Shown: in pieces, positions 4,190-8,106 of the stretch
Layout of the letters: each line of letters starts with the position of its first letter
How positions within the stretch are numbered: position 1 is the stretch's first letter
Source of the DNA: Geobacillus thermocatenulatus
GTDB lineage: Bacteria > Bacillota > Bacilli > Bacillales > Anoxybacillaceae
NCBI RefSeq assembly: GCF_002217655.1
Contig: NZ_NEWK01000002.1
Span: 621,164-685,163 of the forward strand
DNA length: 64,000 nucleotides
Direction: 5' to 3'
The notes under the pieces: generated by a model
Told to the model about the DNA's origin: nothing
Database searches by the model: none
Seen by the model: only the letters and a program-made list of their open reading frames with translations
Made by a program: the position numbers and the translations under genes

Positions 4190-4944
4190 TTATTCTTCAA
4201 GCAATCCGAACCCGTCTTGCTGCGGTTCGCTCGTTTCCTCTTCAACGTCGATGCCGTAATGCTGGCGGATGGCGCGGGCGATCTCATCAGCGATGTGCGG
4301 GTTTTCCTTCAAAAATTGCTTCGCGTTTTCCCGCCCTTGGCCAAGCCGCTCGTCTTTGTACGAATACCACGAACCGCTTTTTTGCACGATGTCCAATTCG
4401 GACGCCATGTCGAGAATTTCCCCTTCGCGGGAAATGCCTTCGCCGTACATAATGTCGACGTCAGCCGTTTTAAATGGCGGCGCCACTTTGTTTTTGACGA
4501 CTTTGATTTTCGTCTTGTTGCCGACCATATCATTGCCTTGCTTAATTTGCTCAGCGCGGCGCACCTCTAGACGGACAGAAGCGTAAAACTTGAGCGCCCG
4601 ACCGCCCGGCGTTGTCTCGGGATTGCCGAACATGACGCCCACTTTTTCGCGAATTTGGTTGATGAAGATGGCGATCGTTTTCGATTTGTTAATGGCGCCA
4701 GACAGCTTGCGAAGCGCCTGGGACATAAGCCGCGCTTGCAAGCCGACATGGGCGTCGCCCATCTCCCCTTCAATTTCCGCTTTCGGCACAAGCGCCGCCA
4801 CCGAGTCGATGACGATAATATCGACCGCGCCGCTTCGCACGAGCGCTTCCGCGATTTCGAGCGCCTGCTCGCCCGTGTCAGGCTGGGAAAGCAGCAATTC
4901 ATCGATATTGACCCCTAATTTTTGTGCATAGATGGGGTCGAGCG
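4190..4944 (-). CDS. recA: Recombinase RecA, 3' exon
   Basis: The second recA exon, coding from codon 97 (positions 2-3) to the stop at 4190. RecA forms the nucleoprotein filament for homologous recombination and stimulates LexA autocleavage. The exon carries [10 protein letters not shown], the Walker B strand ([12 protein letters not shown]), loop L1 ([23 protein letters not shown]), the [26 protein letters not shown] region with loop L2, and the C-terminal domain ending [10 protein letters not shown]. Joined to the 5' exon (7728-8016) it gives 1044 nt, that is 347 residues, the normal Bacillaceae length. The junction reads GAG CAC G/CG CTC GAC, giving EHALDP. Without splicing this part of RecA is separated from the ATP-binding half. 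Confidence 0.97.
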
Positions 4945-4990
4945 ATAGCGATAGGTAATAGTCACCCTCGGCATTACCCGGAGGGGCTAT
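4945..4990 (-). ncRNA. Group II intron domain VI with branch point
   Basis: The minus strand pairs ATAGC (4986-4990) with GCTAT at the intron's 3' end, and GGTAAT with ATTACC inside. An unpaired A at 4952 lies 8 nt from the 3' splice site, where the lariat branch adenosine is expected. Confidence 0.8.
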
Positions 4991-5003
4991 TTTCCCCCGC
5001 TTC

Positions 5004-5037
5004 ACACCGTGCGTGCGAGTTTCCCCGCACACGGCGT
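5004..5037 (-). ncRNA. Group II intron domain V (catalytic core)
   Basis: A 34-nt hairpin typical of domain V: ACGCCGUGUGCGG, a GAAA tetraloop region, then CUCGCACGCACGGUGU. The catalytic triad position reads CGC rather than AGC, a variant known in bacterial introns. It sits 59 nt before the 3' splice site. Confidence 0.88.
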
Positions 5038-5077
5038 TCCATCGAGTACCCCGGTTACTAATCCGCTCTAGACTTTA

Positions 5078-6892
5078 CTAGTGTACGCACTTTCTGTATT
5101 CCTCGAGTTTCCTTATTGCGTTTGTTTTTAAGCGACTGAGGTTGACATCACTTAGATCCTTTAAATGGATCAATGTATGACATTTGTCGCAGACCGTTAC
5201 GAGATTGCTTACCTTATTAATTTCGTTCAGCGGAAGTTTCGTATTGATATGGTGGGTTCTAGTGTTAAATGGCTGCAGAATGTCACCACATATTTTACAT
5301 TTTCCTTTATCTCTGTTAAACGCATAACACCGATTCATGAAGAATTCGAAGTTGTAAATTTTACTAGACTTAACTCCTTGAATTAGGTTTAGGTAACCAC
5401 TGTCTAATAACCATTGTGCTCTTACGGTCAGCGGCTTCTTACCCGTGTTTTGAAGCCTAATTCTTCTTCCTTCCGCTGTGTATGGTGTTTCCTTCTGATT
5501 TTTCTGGTTTGTTTTAATCCAAGTTGCGAACCCAATACTCATTATACCAAGCCATCTTCCATTTATTTTGATTGCAGGCACTTGTTCTGTTCTATCTGGG
5601 TACAGGGGTGCTAAGTTGTAGCATTGATTAGCAGGTATCCATTTCGCTCCATATCTCTTTAGTGCTTTGTAGGACGCATATTTAAGTTTTTCCTTAAATG
5701 GCCTTACATCTCTGTTGACGCTAGGAGCACTTGAGTAATAATTAATGATACCTCTAATTTTACTGTTAATTCGGTTGATGTCCGTTATAAGCCATTCTTG
5801 ATTCGTGGCGAATTTTAGTTTACGCAGATCTTTCCTGATCTGTTCAACTTTCCCTTTAATTTTTTCCGTGTCTGCACTCGCGTATCCGATGTATTTTCCA
5901 CCTTTACCGTGTGGTATCATTTTAATTTTGAAACCTAGGAATTTCATTGGTTTCTTCTTAATGTTGGTTATGAGTGTTTTGTCATCGGATAGTTCAAGTT
6001 TAAGGTTTTCTTTTAGATATTTCTTGATTCGATATTTCCATTTTTCGGCATTCCCCCTGCTATTGGTGAACAGTACCCAGTCGTCTGCGTATCTTACGTA
6101 GAACTCTGGTTTGGTTATTGTTGAGTGATCTCGGAGGGACTTGTATTTTGCCGTGCGAATGGTTGTACCATTTCGCATTTTCTTCTCTTCCCATTCTCTT
6201 GTTATCCATTGGTCGAGTTTATGAAGATACACATTGGCTAATAGTGGGGAGATAATTCCACCTTGTGGCGTGCCCATTTCATTTATCTTGGTTTCTTTTA
6301 TAACTCCTGCTTTCAGCATGGCTTTGATAATCATGAGCATTCGTCTATCACGTATACCCATGTGCCAAAGCTGCTTGATCAGGATAGTGTGGTTCACGTT
6401 ATCGAAGAAACCTTTTATATCTCCCTCTATCACCCAATTGTACCCTATTCGGTTACATATAAATACACATCTTTCGATGGCTTGTTTTGCGTCTCGGTAG
6501 GGTCTGAACCCATATGAGTGTTGAAAAAATTGTGCTTCAAGAATTGGTTCAATGACCATCCTCACACATTCTTGGATTATTCGGTCTGCGATCGTCAGAA
6601 TGCCTAAAGGTCTCTTTTCCTTTTTCCCGGGTTTTGGGATATGGACCCTTCTGATCGGGTTAGGTGTATATTTCTTAAAGCATCTTTTAACGAAGTTTAT
6701 CGCTTCGTCATAGTTCAGCGTTAGTATGTCGCTGATGGTTTTCCCATCTGTACCCGCTGTACTATTTCCTTGGTTTGATTTGATTTTGTGAATGGCGGAT
6801 ACGATCACGACATCGCTGCTTGCTATTTCGACCAATCCCTTAAATCTTGGAACATCACCTTTTTCCAGACATTCCTTTGTAATGGCGTACAC
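5078..6892 (-). CDS. Group II intron-encoded reverse transcriptase/maturase with HNH endonuclease domain
   Basis: The intron-encoded protein helps fold and splice the intron RNA and copies it into DNA for mobility. The 604-residue frame from GTG 6892 holds RT blocks from about residue 40 (NSTAGTDGKT; RRVHIPKPGKKEKRPLGI; EGDIKGFFDNV; GTPQGGIISPLLANVYL) with the catalytic YADD at about 268-271. A maturase (X) domain follows at about 375-420. The C-terminal HNH/En domain (about 530-580) has CKIC, HH and CDKC. All catalytic motifs look intact, so splicing and retrohoming competence are likely. The frame stays open for at least 23 codons upstream of 6892 with protein-like sequence and an AAAGGA motif but no ATG, GTG or TTG, so the true start is uncertain (see findings). 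Confidence 0.95.
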   Translation of the reverse strand: MYAITKECLEKGDVPRFKGLVEIASSDVVIVSAIHKIKSNQGNSTAGTDGKTISDILTLNYDEAINFVKRCFKKYTPNPIRRVHIPKPGKKEKRPLGILTIADRIIQECVRMVIEPILEAQFFQHSYGFRPYRDAKQAIERCVFICNRIGYNWVIEGDIKGFFDNVNHTILIKQLWHMGIRDRRMLMIIKAMLKAGVIKETKINEMGTPQGGIISPLLANVYLHKLDQWITREWEEKKMRNGTTIRTAKYKSLRDHSTITKPEFYVRYADDWVLFTNSRGNAEKWKYRIKKYLKENLKLELSDDKTLITNIKKKPMKFLGFKIKMIPHGKGGKYIGYASADTEKIKGKVEQIRKDLRKLKFATNQEWLITDINRINSKIRGIINYYSSAPSVNRDVRPFKEKLKYASYKALKRYGAKWIPANQCYNLAPLYPDRTEQVPAIKINGRWLGIMSIGFATWIKTNQKNQKETPYTAEGRRIRLQNTGKKPLTVRAQWLLDSGYLNLIQGVKSSKIYNFEFFMNRCYAFNRDKGKCKICGDILQPFNTRTHHINTKLPLNEINKVSNLVTVCDKCHTLIHLKDLSDVNLSRLKTNAIRKLEEYRKCVH

Positions 6893-7347
6893 CTTGTCTT
6901 GTAGGTCGCGGAATTCCTGCTCCGACCTAGGAATGATTAGTTCTTGAAACGTTTGGTTGATAGTATCAAATCCTTTCTAGCGGATTTGTACCATACACGT
7001 TTTTAGTCAGTTTTGCTCACCGAAACCCTTACGGATTTCCTCACGGCTTCCTAATCATTGTCTGGGTTAGTAACCTAGGGTACTCGACTATGCCCCTTCG
7101 CTCCGCAGGAGTTACCCTGCTTCATCACTACTACGGGCTGCTGCCCCACCCCTTCAGCAGTCATTTCCTCCTGCTTAGCGGCATCGGGATGCGCATCCCT
7201 TGGCATCCGCTGGGGTGGTTCACCTGTACCGCATCACCTATCCTTGCATGCTCCCTTAGGCTCCACCTCTGACCCGTCAGCCGCCTTTCTGCCCATGGTT
7301 GGAGGGCTCAAGGCAAAGATCCTCTACGGGATCAATCCAGACTCGGC

Positions 7348-7354
7348 AAACACG
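7348..7354 (-). other. Candidate EBS1 of the recA intron
   Basis: The minus-strand RNA CGUGUUU can pair with all seven exon bases before the 5' splice site (GAGCACG), two pairs being G-U. It lies about 373 nt into the intron, a usual EBS1 distance. Confidence 0.55.
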
Positions 7355-7448
7355 AATACCTCATCCAGGGCTGAACCTCACTTAGGAGGTGAGCGCCTTC
7401 TTTTTTCGGCGCCCCACGCCTTACGAGCCGTACTTCCGGTGGTTCGTT

Positions 7449-7455
7449 CCAACGC
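7449..7455 (-). other. Candidate EBS2 of the recA intron
   Basis: The minus-strand RNA GCGUUGG can pair with exon bases UCGACGC (-15 to -9), with two G-U pairs. It lies about 100 nt upstream of the EBS1 candidate, the usual order in domain I. Confidence 0.5.
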
Positions 7456-7727
7456 TATGCGTTCTCTAGCCATAGGAGCTTTATGGACCCCCGGCTACTT
7501 CGCTAACCGCTTCTCAGGTCTGCTTTTCGCCGTCCTCTCCGAGCTTCGTACAGCCATGTTGCGCACCATGACCGCACGTCGGGGTATTAGGGCGGGAATG
7601 CCAACCTTCATTCCCGTCTCGGATTTTCACCGAGCTCTCGGTGATGCAGTTAGGACCTACTCATGCTCAGTCCCGCTGACTTTTCGCACGGCGTTTCCGC
7701 CATACTTCAGTCAGCAACAGGTCGCAC

Positions 7728-8016
7728 CGTGCTCTGCGTCGATGAAAGCTGCTTGCCCGCCCCGCTTTTGCACTTCCGCGATCGCGTGAAGGGCAACGGT
7801 CGTTTTCCCGGACGATTCCGGGCCGTAAATTTCCACAATCCGCCCGCGCGGATAGCCGCCGACGCCTAACGCGATGTCGAGCGCCAGCGAACCGCTCGGC
7901 ACGACCGACACTTTGCGGTCGACTTGCTCGCCGAGCTTCATGATGGCCCCCTTGCCAAACTGTCGTTCAATTTGTTTTAATGCCTGCTCCAATGCAGCTT
8001 GACGATCTTGGTTCAC
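7728..8016 (-). CDS. recA: Recombinase RecA, 5' exon
   Basis: The first recA exon starts at GTG 8016, preceded by AAGGAGGAGTAGGTTA, and encodes residues 1-96 plus one base of codon 97. It contains the N-terminal helix ([22 protein letters not shown]), the Walker A loop GPESSGKT (about 65-72) and FIDAEH, where Glu95 corresponds to the catalytic E96 of E. coli. Unspliced mRNA would add five codons (GATCC) and then stop, giving a dead ATP-binding fragment of about 101 residues. Functional RecA therefore needs intron removal. Transcription starts from a sigma-A promoter at 8050-8078 with a LexA-like box upstream. Confidence 0.97.
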
Positions 8017-8049: not shown

Positions 8050-8078
8050 ACTATACCGCGTTTTGCGGCCATTGCCAA
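8050..8078 (-). promoter_or_regulatory. Sigma-A promoter of recA
   Basis: On the minus strand TTGGCA (8073-8078), 17 bases, TATAGT (8050-8055). The start of transcription would fall close upstream of the recA ribosome binding site. Confidence 0.8.
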
Positions 8079-8080
8079 GC

Positions 8081-8106
8081 AAAAAACGAACGTCCATTCG
8101 TTTTTT
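8081..8106 (-). terminator. Terminator of cinA, bidirectional in form
   Basis: A 10-bp stem AAAAAACGAA/TTCGTTTTTT with a 6-nt loop gives a U-run on either strand. It follows cinA and could separate it from the recA promoter. Confidence 0.65.
8087..8100. promoter_or_regulatory. LexA/DinR-type SOS box of recA
   Basis: The plus strand reads CGAACGTCCATTCG, close to the Bacillus SOS consensus CGAACRNRYGTTCG with one mismatch in the right half-site. It ends 9 bp upstream of the recA -35 element. Bacillus recA is a classic LexA target. Confidence 0.7.

Follow-up and report, generated by a model that had tools for sequence, protein, structure and literature searches.

How does a bacterium make RecA when its only recA gene is broken open beside the codon for the catalytic glutamate? 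The question is raised by a 64,000-nucleotide stretch of the Geobacillus thermocatenulatus genome (the window; its genome is called G000), in which the two halves of recA are separated by 2,783 nucleotides (nt). A sequence-only reading of the window had proposed that a group II intron carrying a reverse transcriptase (RT)/maturase gene interrupts the sole recA beside this glutamate, and that neither half can function without splicing. Rfam matches, a joined reading frame and protein-family searches bear this out, and we place at roughly 0.93 the probability that the insert is a mobile group II intron, specific to this site, whose splicing is a prerequisite for RecA. The core finding, a group II intron in recA, is already known from Geobacillus kaustophilus (Chee and Takami 2005, Gene 363:211). 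The same reading had pointed to that report, which does exist: PMC4424553 and PMC3522654 both cite it by title.

The interrupted recA gene

The gene is carried on the minus strand, and its parts and those of the intron are as follows.

7728..8016, minus strand: recA exon 1 (residues 1–96 and base 1 of codon 97, with Walker A and Glu95), by PF00154 match and scripted exon joining
4945..7727, minus strand: group II intron, 2,783 nt, by Rfam matches, the joined frame and an insertion nucleotide shared with relatives
4190..4944, minus strand: recA exon 2 (from base 2 of codon 97 through residue 347 and the stop codon), by PF00154 match and scripted exon joining
7480..7630, minus strand: domain I–IV core of the intron, RF02004 (Group II D1-D4), 57.7 bits, E = 1.1e-9
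4945..5039, minus strand: domains V and VI, RF00029 (D5/D6), 56.7 bits, E = 1.7e-8
5078..6976, minus strand: open frame of an RT/maturase with a C-terminal HNH-like segment, by TIGR04416 and RVT_1; its start, ATC near 6961 or GTG at 6892, is uncertain

Exon 1 (289 nt, with a GTG start at 8016) and exon 2 (755 nt), when joined by script, yield a single open frame of 347 residues that includes the conserved FIDAEHALDP. The insertion point follows base 1 of codon 97 in the run Glu95, His96, Ala97, and the coordinates, lengths, phase and intron ends given earlier proved correct. Walker A lies in exon 1 (assigned by eye) and the other core parts of the protein lie in exon 2; thus RecA needs splicing, and the claim that neither half functions alone holds. 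A second intact recA, named beforehand as a refuting observation, was looked for with PF00154 across the genome: only the two recA halves scored above the 27-bit cut-off, and a third match reached 20.1 bits.

Both Rfam matches to the intron exceed their curated cut-offs, and the D5/D6 match ends exactly on the predicted last intron base (4945). No further family scored above its cut-off in an Rfam scan of the 64-kb window, and the intron is present as a single copy in the genome. Its ends, GTGCGACC...CGCTAT, give the 5′ GTGYG and 3′ AY of group II introns. The candidate branch A, assigned by eye, is position 4952, 7–8 nt from the 3′ end. An alternative 3′ splice site six bases upstream (CTAT/CGCTAT) would keep the frame, but it lies one base past the presumed branch A and was rejected. 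The exons and both ribozyme arms have a G+C fraction of 0.56, the open reading frame (ORF) one of 0.40.

That ORF matches TIGR04416 at 320 bits (cut-off 300), which confirms the maturase proposed earlier, and RVT_1 at 124 bits (cut-off 29.6, E = 8.7e-36); its highest-scoring solved relative is LtrA (5g2x, E = 1.4e-49). Residues 548–612 weakly match an HNH-containing IscB model (27.1 bits against a cut-off of 175, E = 2e-6). A Pfam search of the maturase returned no HNH match, and the Cys/His motif in this segment was seen by eye. Relatives start with ATG in Neobacillus and in the genome G161, and plausibly with GTG in a Desulfotomaculum copy. The maturase is under purifying selection, with ω values (nonsynonymous to synonymous rate ratios) of 0.026–0.075 in four of six pairs of proteins from introns at the same recA position; the fifth pair is too similar and the sixth is saturated.

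A shared insertion site and its proposed recognition

We call the insertion nucleotide of the window's intron site A, and surveyed it in 14 genomes of the same genus as G000 (the genus). It is filled in eight, with a maturase present in G000, G007, G009 and G012 and no maturase gene in G004, G006, G011 and G013. The site is empty in the other six (G001, G002, G003, G005, G008 and G010), a pattern that fits a retrohoming element. Site A is also filled in five hosts outside the genus: G161 (full maturase), G234 (809 nt, no ORF), G303 (1,821 nt, broken maturase), Neobacillus mesonae (L083) and a Desulfotomaculum metagenome-assembled genome (MAG; L077). All 13 introns begin at the same position in recA, with GTGYG or GTACG, and in all 13 the sequence ACCTATC[G/A]CTA[T/A] precedes the 3′ end defined by the frame.

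A 19-row maturase tree included six of the seven full-length site-A maturases (that of G009 was omitted as near-identical to that of G000). These six form one clade with 100/100 support, and the maturases of the other recA site in G161 and of a second recA intron in G013 fall outside it. The Desulfotomaculum maturase lies inside the clade, its exact placement weakly supported (85/66), which argues for transfer between distant hosts. A scan of genome contigs found relatives encoded at 15 loci, with recA within the fetched flanks at 2; several of the remaining loci are truncated at contig edges, and records close to the window's genome may be omitted. In a phylum sample, 4 of 398 genomes passed E ≤ 1e-150, G000 among them, and around the other three loci no recA match lies within the 4.4–4.8 kb fetched. 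As for a plasmid or phage source, none of 216 plasmid records has a place covering 80% of the intron, and among phage records 34 reach E ≤ 1e-20, none with as much as 60% identity. The shared nucleotide and the single clade suggest that one intron family targets this exact recA spot in several bacteria.

The likely means of targeting was sought by aligning the first 800 nt of the 13 site-A introns, eight of which are genus copies, several near-identical and so non-independent. The search gave a candidate exon-binding site (EBS1) and its intron-binding partner in the exon (IBS1).

7728..7733, minus strand: IBS1 (AGCACG), the last 6 nt of exon 1, pairing with EBS1
7349..7354, minus strand: EBS1 (CGTGTT) in the hairpin loop TATTCGTGTTTG, pairing with the last six exon bases

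In the window the two form six base pairs, one of them G-U, and at this one alignment column 12 of the 13 introns pair without mismatch. The EBS1 sequences of G004 (CGTGCT/AGCACG) and G161 (CATGTT/AACATG) carry changes that better match their own exons, and matched stem changes were seen by eye in the EBS1 hairpin and in the first D1 helix. The U and G of EBS1 face the third bases of Glu95 (A/G) and His96 (C/T), so that either spelling of each codon pairs. Indeed, CGTGTT fits 34 of 36 recA alleles in the fetched loci (one misfit, one allele not located), versus 23, 21 and 12 for variants lacking one or both wobble bases. Wobble-capable EBS1 bases may thereby account for the host range. Searches of an open-licence library, in which most subscription papers are missing, turned up no report of a wobble-tolerant EBS1 or of recA as an intron hot spot.

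A simple model can be drawn from these features, in which a mobile group II intron homes to a single recA nucleotide. EBS1 in domain I would pair with the six bases that close exon 1 (the end of the Glu95 codon, His96 and the first base of Ala97), and its wobble-capable bases at two synonymous positions could let the ribonucleoprotein recognise recA across many bacteria. The ribozyme, its excision assisted by the RT/maturase, would then remove itself from a probably LexA-controlled recA transcript and join the exons for a 347-residue RecA. Later the maturase may be lost and the ribozyme stay as a splicing-only intron, splicing being kept because recA is needed. The sequences themselves show the anatomy, the exact site, one recA, selection on the maturase, a site and a clade held in common, maturase losses and mosaic flanks; splicing, homing, wobble tolerance in practice and the function of the ORF-less copies we infer.

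An alternative is that the intron is dead or poorly spliced and that the strain copes with scant RecA or none at all; some relatives have lost the maturase, and bacteria do not strictly require recA. We nevertheless find this alternative hardly credible, because joined recA frames of 347 codons without a stop are present in seven of the eight intron-bearing genus alleles (that of G013 stops at an unremoved second intron), D5/D6 (the last 100 nt of the intron) is 95–100% identical within the genus, and the maturase is under purifying selection; passages of PMC3522654 also term the G. kaustophilus recA intron 'active'. After codon 97, RecA ω is 0.030–0.090 in seven pairs with intron-bearing genus members and 0.017–0.019 in two intron-free pairs, an apparent rise with introns; six pairs with hosts outside the genus are saturated. 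This test is weak for G006, G011 and G013, whose introns are near-identical to that of G000 and are therefore recent arrivals.

Several observations weigh against a mobile, splicing intron. Low RecA ω partly records the time before insertion in recently invaded genomes. The aligned EBS1 of G234 has two mismatches to its exon, and an EBS2 candidate window that pairs in 10 of 13 introns coincides with a conserved hairpin strand, is probably a product of chance and goes unclaimed. By reading frame, the site-A introns of L083, L093 and L094 end in AA, not AY/AT; for two of the three the Rfam match extends one base, whereupon AY is satisfied and the frame is broken. ATC occupies the position in the window's maturase frame where Neobacillus and G161 have ATG, the next usual start being GTG at 6892; G000, G007 and G012 have ATC or ATT at this aligned position, and a maturase without ATG there may be poorly expressed.

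At intron position 586, the three introns whose last base is A rather than T likewise swap A for T. Among the 15 columns that separate A-ending from T-ending introns, two show the exchange expected for γ–γ′. Position 586 could be the γ partner; the match is only suggestive, and the A-ending introns are probably one lineage.

Maturase loss and probable exchange between species

The four maturase-free genus copies do not share one history. G006, G011 and G013 have the same maturase deletion junction, and the introns of G011 and G013 are identical. G004 has a different junction and, across the first 690 nt, is 6.4% diverged from G007, its closest relative, so that its loss is a separate one. G006 (L040) carries a further insertion of ~330 nt, like a miniature inverted-repeat transposable element and with a large palindrome, inside the intron's ORF remnant.

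Splicing of these copies might strictly require a maturase supplied in trans by another intron. According to a 2015 review (PMC4424553), ORF-less bacterial group II introns are nearly always accompanied by a related intron-encoded protein (IEP) in the genome, C.te.I1 being the one exception, and passages of PMC3919590 make the same exception claim. G004 does encode other group II RTs, of 424 residues and a different type, and G013 encodes one of this kind along with the maturase of its second recA intron. In G006 and G011, by contrast, TIGR04416 matches nothing at E ≤ 1e-5, and a maturase search found in both only a 36-residue remnant within the intron itself; the one additional match in G011, 29% identical and in a 424-residue frame, is to the HNH part alone. 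We consider dependence on a trans-acting maturase rather unlikely for these four copies. Passages of PMC8919778 count 888 IEP-less introns among 13,041 bacterial group II introns and are silent on the share without any RT; therefore a second example after C.te.I1 cannot be claimed.

In G006, G011 and G013, exon 1, the ribozyme and early exon 2 are mostly 96–100% identical to G000, the part of exon 2 included ranging from its first 100 nt (G006) to about its first 500–600 nt. A dip of 300–400 nt to 88–93% identity is also seen in G009, and the 3.9 kb downstream is ~80–93% identical to G000 in the three genomes. Upstream, similarity to G000 is long in G013, ~0.6 kb in G011 and patchy in G006. 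The intron of these genomes appears to sit in recombination tracts and has probably moved between species, in one direction or the other.

Synonymous distances also separate the history of the intron from that of its host gene. For maturase versus RecA they are 1.40 versus 0.49 (G000/G007), 0.67 versus 0.48 (G007/G012) and 3.06, near saturation, versus 0.16 (G000/G012); simple co-inheritance with recA therefore does not account for these introns. In G000/G009 the maturase distance is the lower (0.0025 versus 0.056). The G012 intron looks like a mosaic.

Possible regulation, recurrent insertion and known systems

Upstream of the gene lie two putative control elements.

8050..8078, minus strand: sigma-70-like recA promoter TTGGCA-17-TATAGT, a 10/12 consensus match and a consensus match only
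8087..8100, minus strand: LexA/SOS-like box CGAATGGACGTTCG, upstream of the promoter, by motif match

The box is the only zero-mismatch site in the window for the LexA-type consensus CGAAYNNNYGTTCG; sites with one mismatch occur at chance level (12 found, 12.07 expected). Lying immediately before the promoter, the box suggests transcription of both intron and maturase upon SOS induction; the intron would then ride along on the SOS transcript as a passenger. The gene for competence/damage-inducible protein A, cinA, lies just upstream of recA, and rny lies downstream.

The sequence-only reading had placed its novelty in regulation, with recombination, SOS induction and competence tied to ribozyme activity. 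A switch in which temperature or DNA damage alters splicing, and hence RecA level, SOS and competence, would draw on the dependence of RecA on splicing, on the SOS-like box and on the nearness of cinA; according to the abstract of PMC6003770, a group II intron inhibits expression of its host gene. We think such a switch quite improbable, as the sequence showed neither a sensor nor a conserved regulatory element, six of the 14 genus genomes lack the intron at site A, and the alternation of ORF-less with maturase-bearing states is that of a passenger element. Novelty in regulation is not supported, with a LexA-type box as the sole regulatory element seen and no sign of regulated splicing in the sequence. 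The comparative content is more interesting: site-specific spread, maturase loss and repeated colonisation of recA.

recA is split in 14 of 41 genomes of the window's own family and in 22 of 397 genomes of an even order sample (5 from the family and 17 others, among which the recA pieces of G236 lie on two contigs and may reflect an assembly gap). The inserts, which are group II, group I or unclassified and in the order sample lie at no fewer than five positions, occupy site A, a second genus site, ~residue 65/66, ~residue 204/205, codon 206 in phase 1, and the junction between residues 216 and 217. At the second genus site, ~79 nt into exon 2, G003 (L037) and G013 (L047) have a group II intron, with its own 667-residue maturase frame in G013 and a C-terminal remnant match only in G003. 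Near Walker A, at ~residue 65/66, L096, L105 and L110 carry inserts of ~0.3–0.4 kb that give no Rfam match at E ≤ 0.1, and short inserts also occur at ~residue 204/205. Codon 206 phase 1 holds a group II intron in G161 and G234; the junction of residues 216 and 217 holds one in G234, G303, G244 (L097) and the Desulfotomaculum MAG, those of the last two being ~2.8 kb. G234 (L094) thus holds three in one recA (ORF-less at site A, codon 206, and 216/217), with a mini-exon of ~11 codons between the latter two. Fourteen short-insert loci put to a permissive Rfam search gave eight group I intron matches with E < 0.002, none of which reaches the gathering score, and six loci without any match at E ≤ 0.1; L083 passes the gathering score.

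Tentatively, and at slightly less than even odds, we propose that recA is a recurrent host of ribozyme introns in Bacillota and that some genus genomes express their sole recA through a maturase-free, organelle-like, splicing-only group II ribozyme. The family would have arrived by a wobble-tolerant EBS1 on Glu-His codons, and the maturase-free form would then have spread between species by homologous recombination, which RecA itself catalyses. A single gene, in this genome and its relatives, displays every stage from an unoccupied site through the complete mobile intron to a maturase-free intron, which in G006 and G011 stands in a genome that gives no match to group II RTs. A passage from retroelement to splicing-only intron has been proposed for organelles and for how spliceosomal introns arose; here it could be tested in a bacterium whose RecA provides a clear phenotype, and it is in the maturase-free relatives and the repeated invasion of recA that testing would pay.

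In passages of PMC4424553 and PMC3522654, bacterial group II introns are described as mostly or virtually always outside housekeeping genes. The G. kaustophilus case is likewise a thermophilic Geobacillus whose recA holds a group II intron, a likeness drawn by title, not base by base. The C.te.I1 intron of Clostridium tetani, in passages of PMC3919590 and PMC4424553, is ORF-less with no IEP gene elsewhere, as in G006 and G011. It differs in residing in a surface-layer gene with alternative splicing, whereas the introns of G006 and G011 occupy the sole recA, have recently lost their ORF and have maturase-bearing sister copies. The group I introns known from the recA genes of Bacillus anthracis and further Bacillus (Ko 2002, cited in PMC3984707) are also ribozyme introns in recA, but of another class and, in the relatives studied here, at another site (~residue 204/205).

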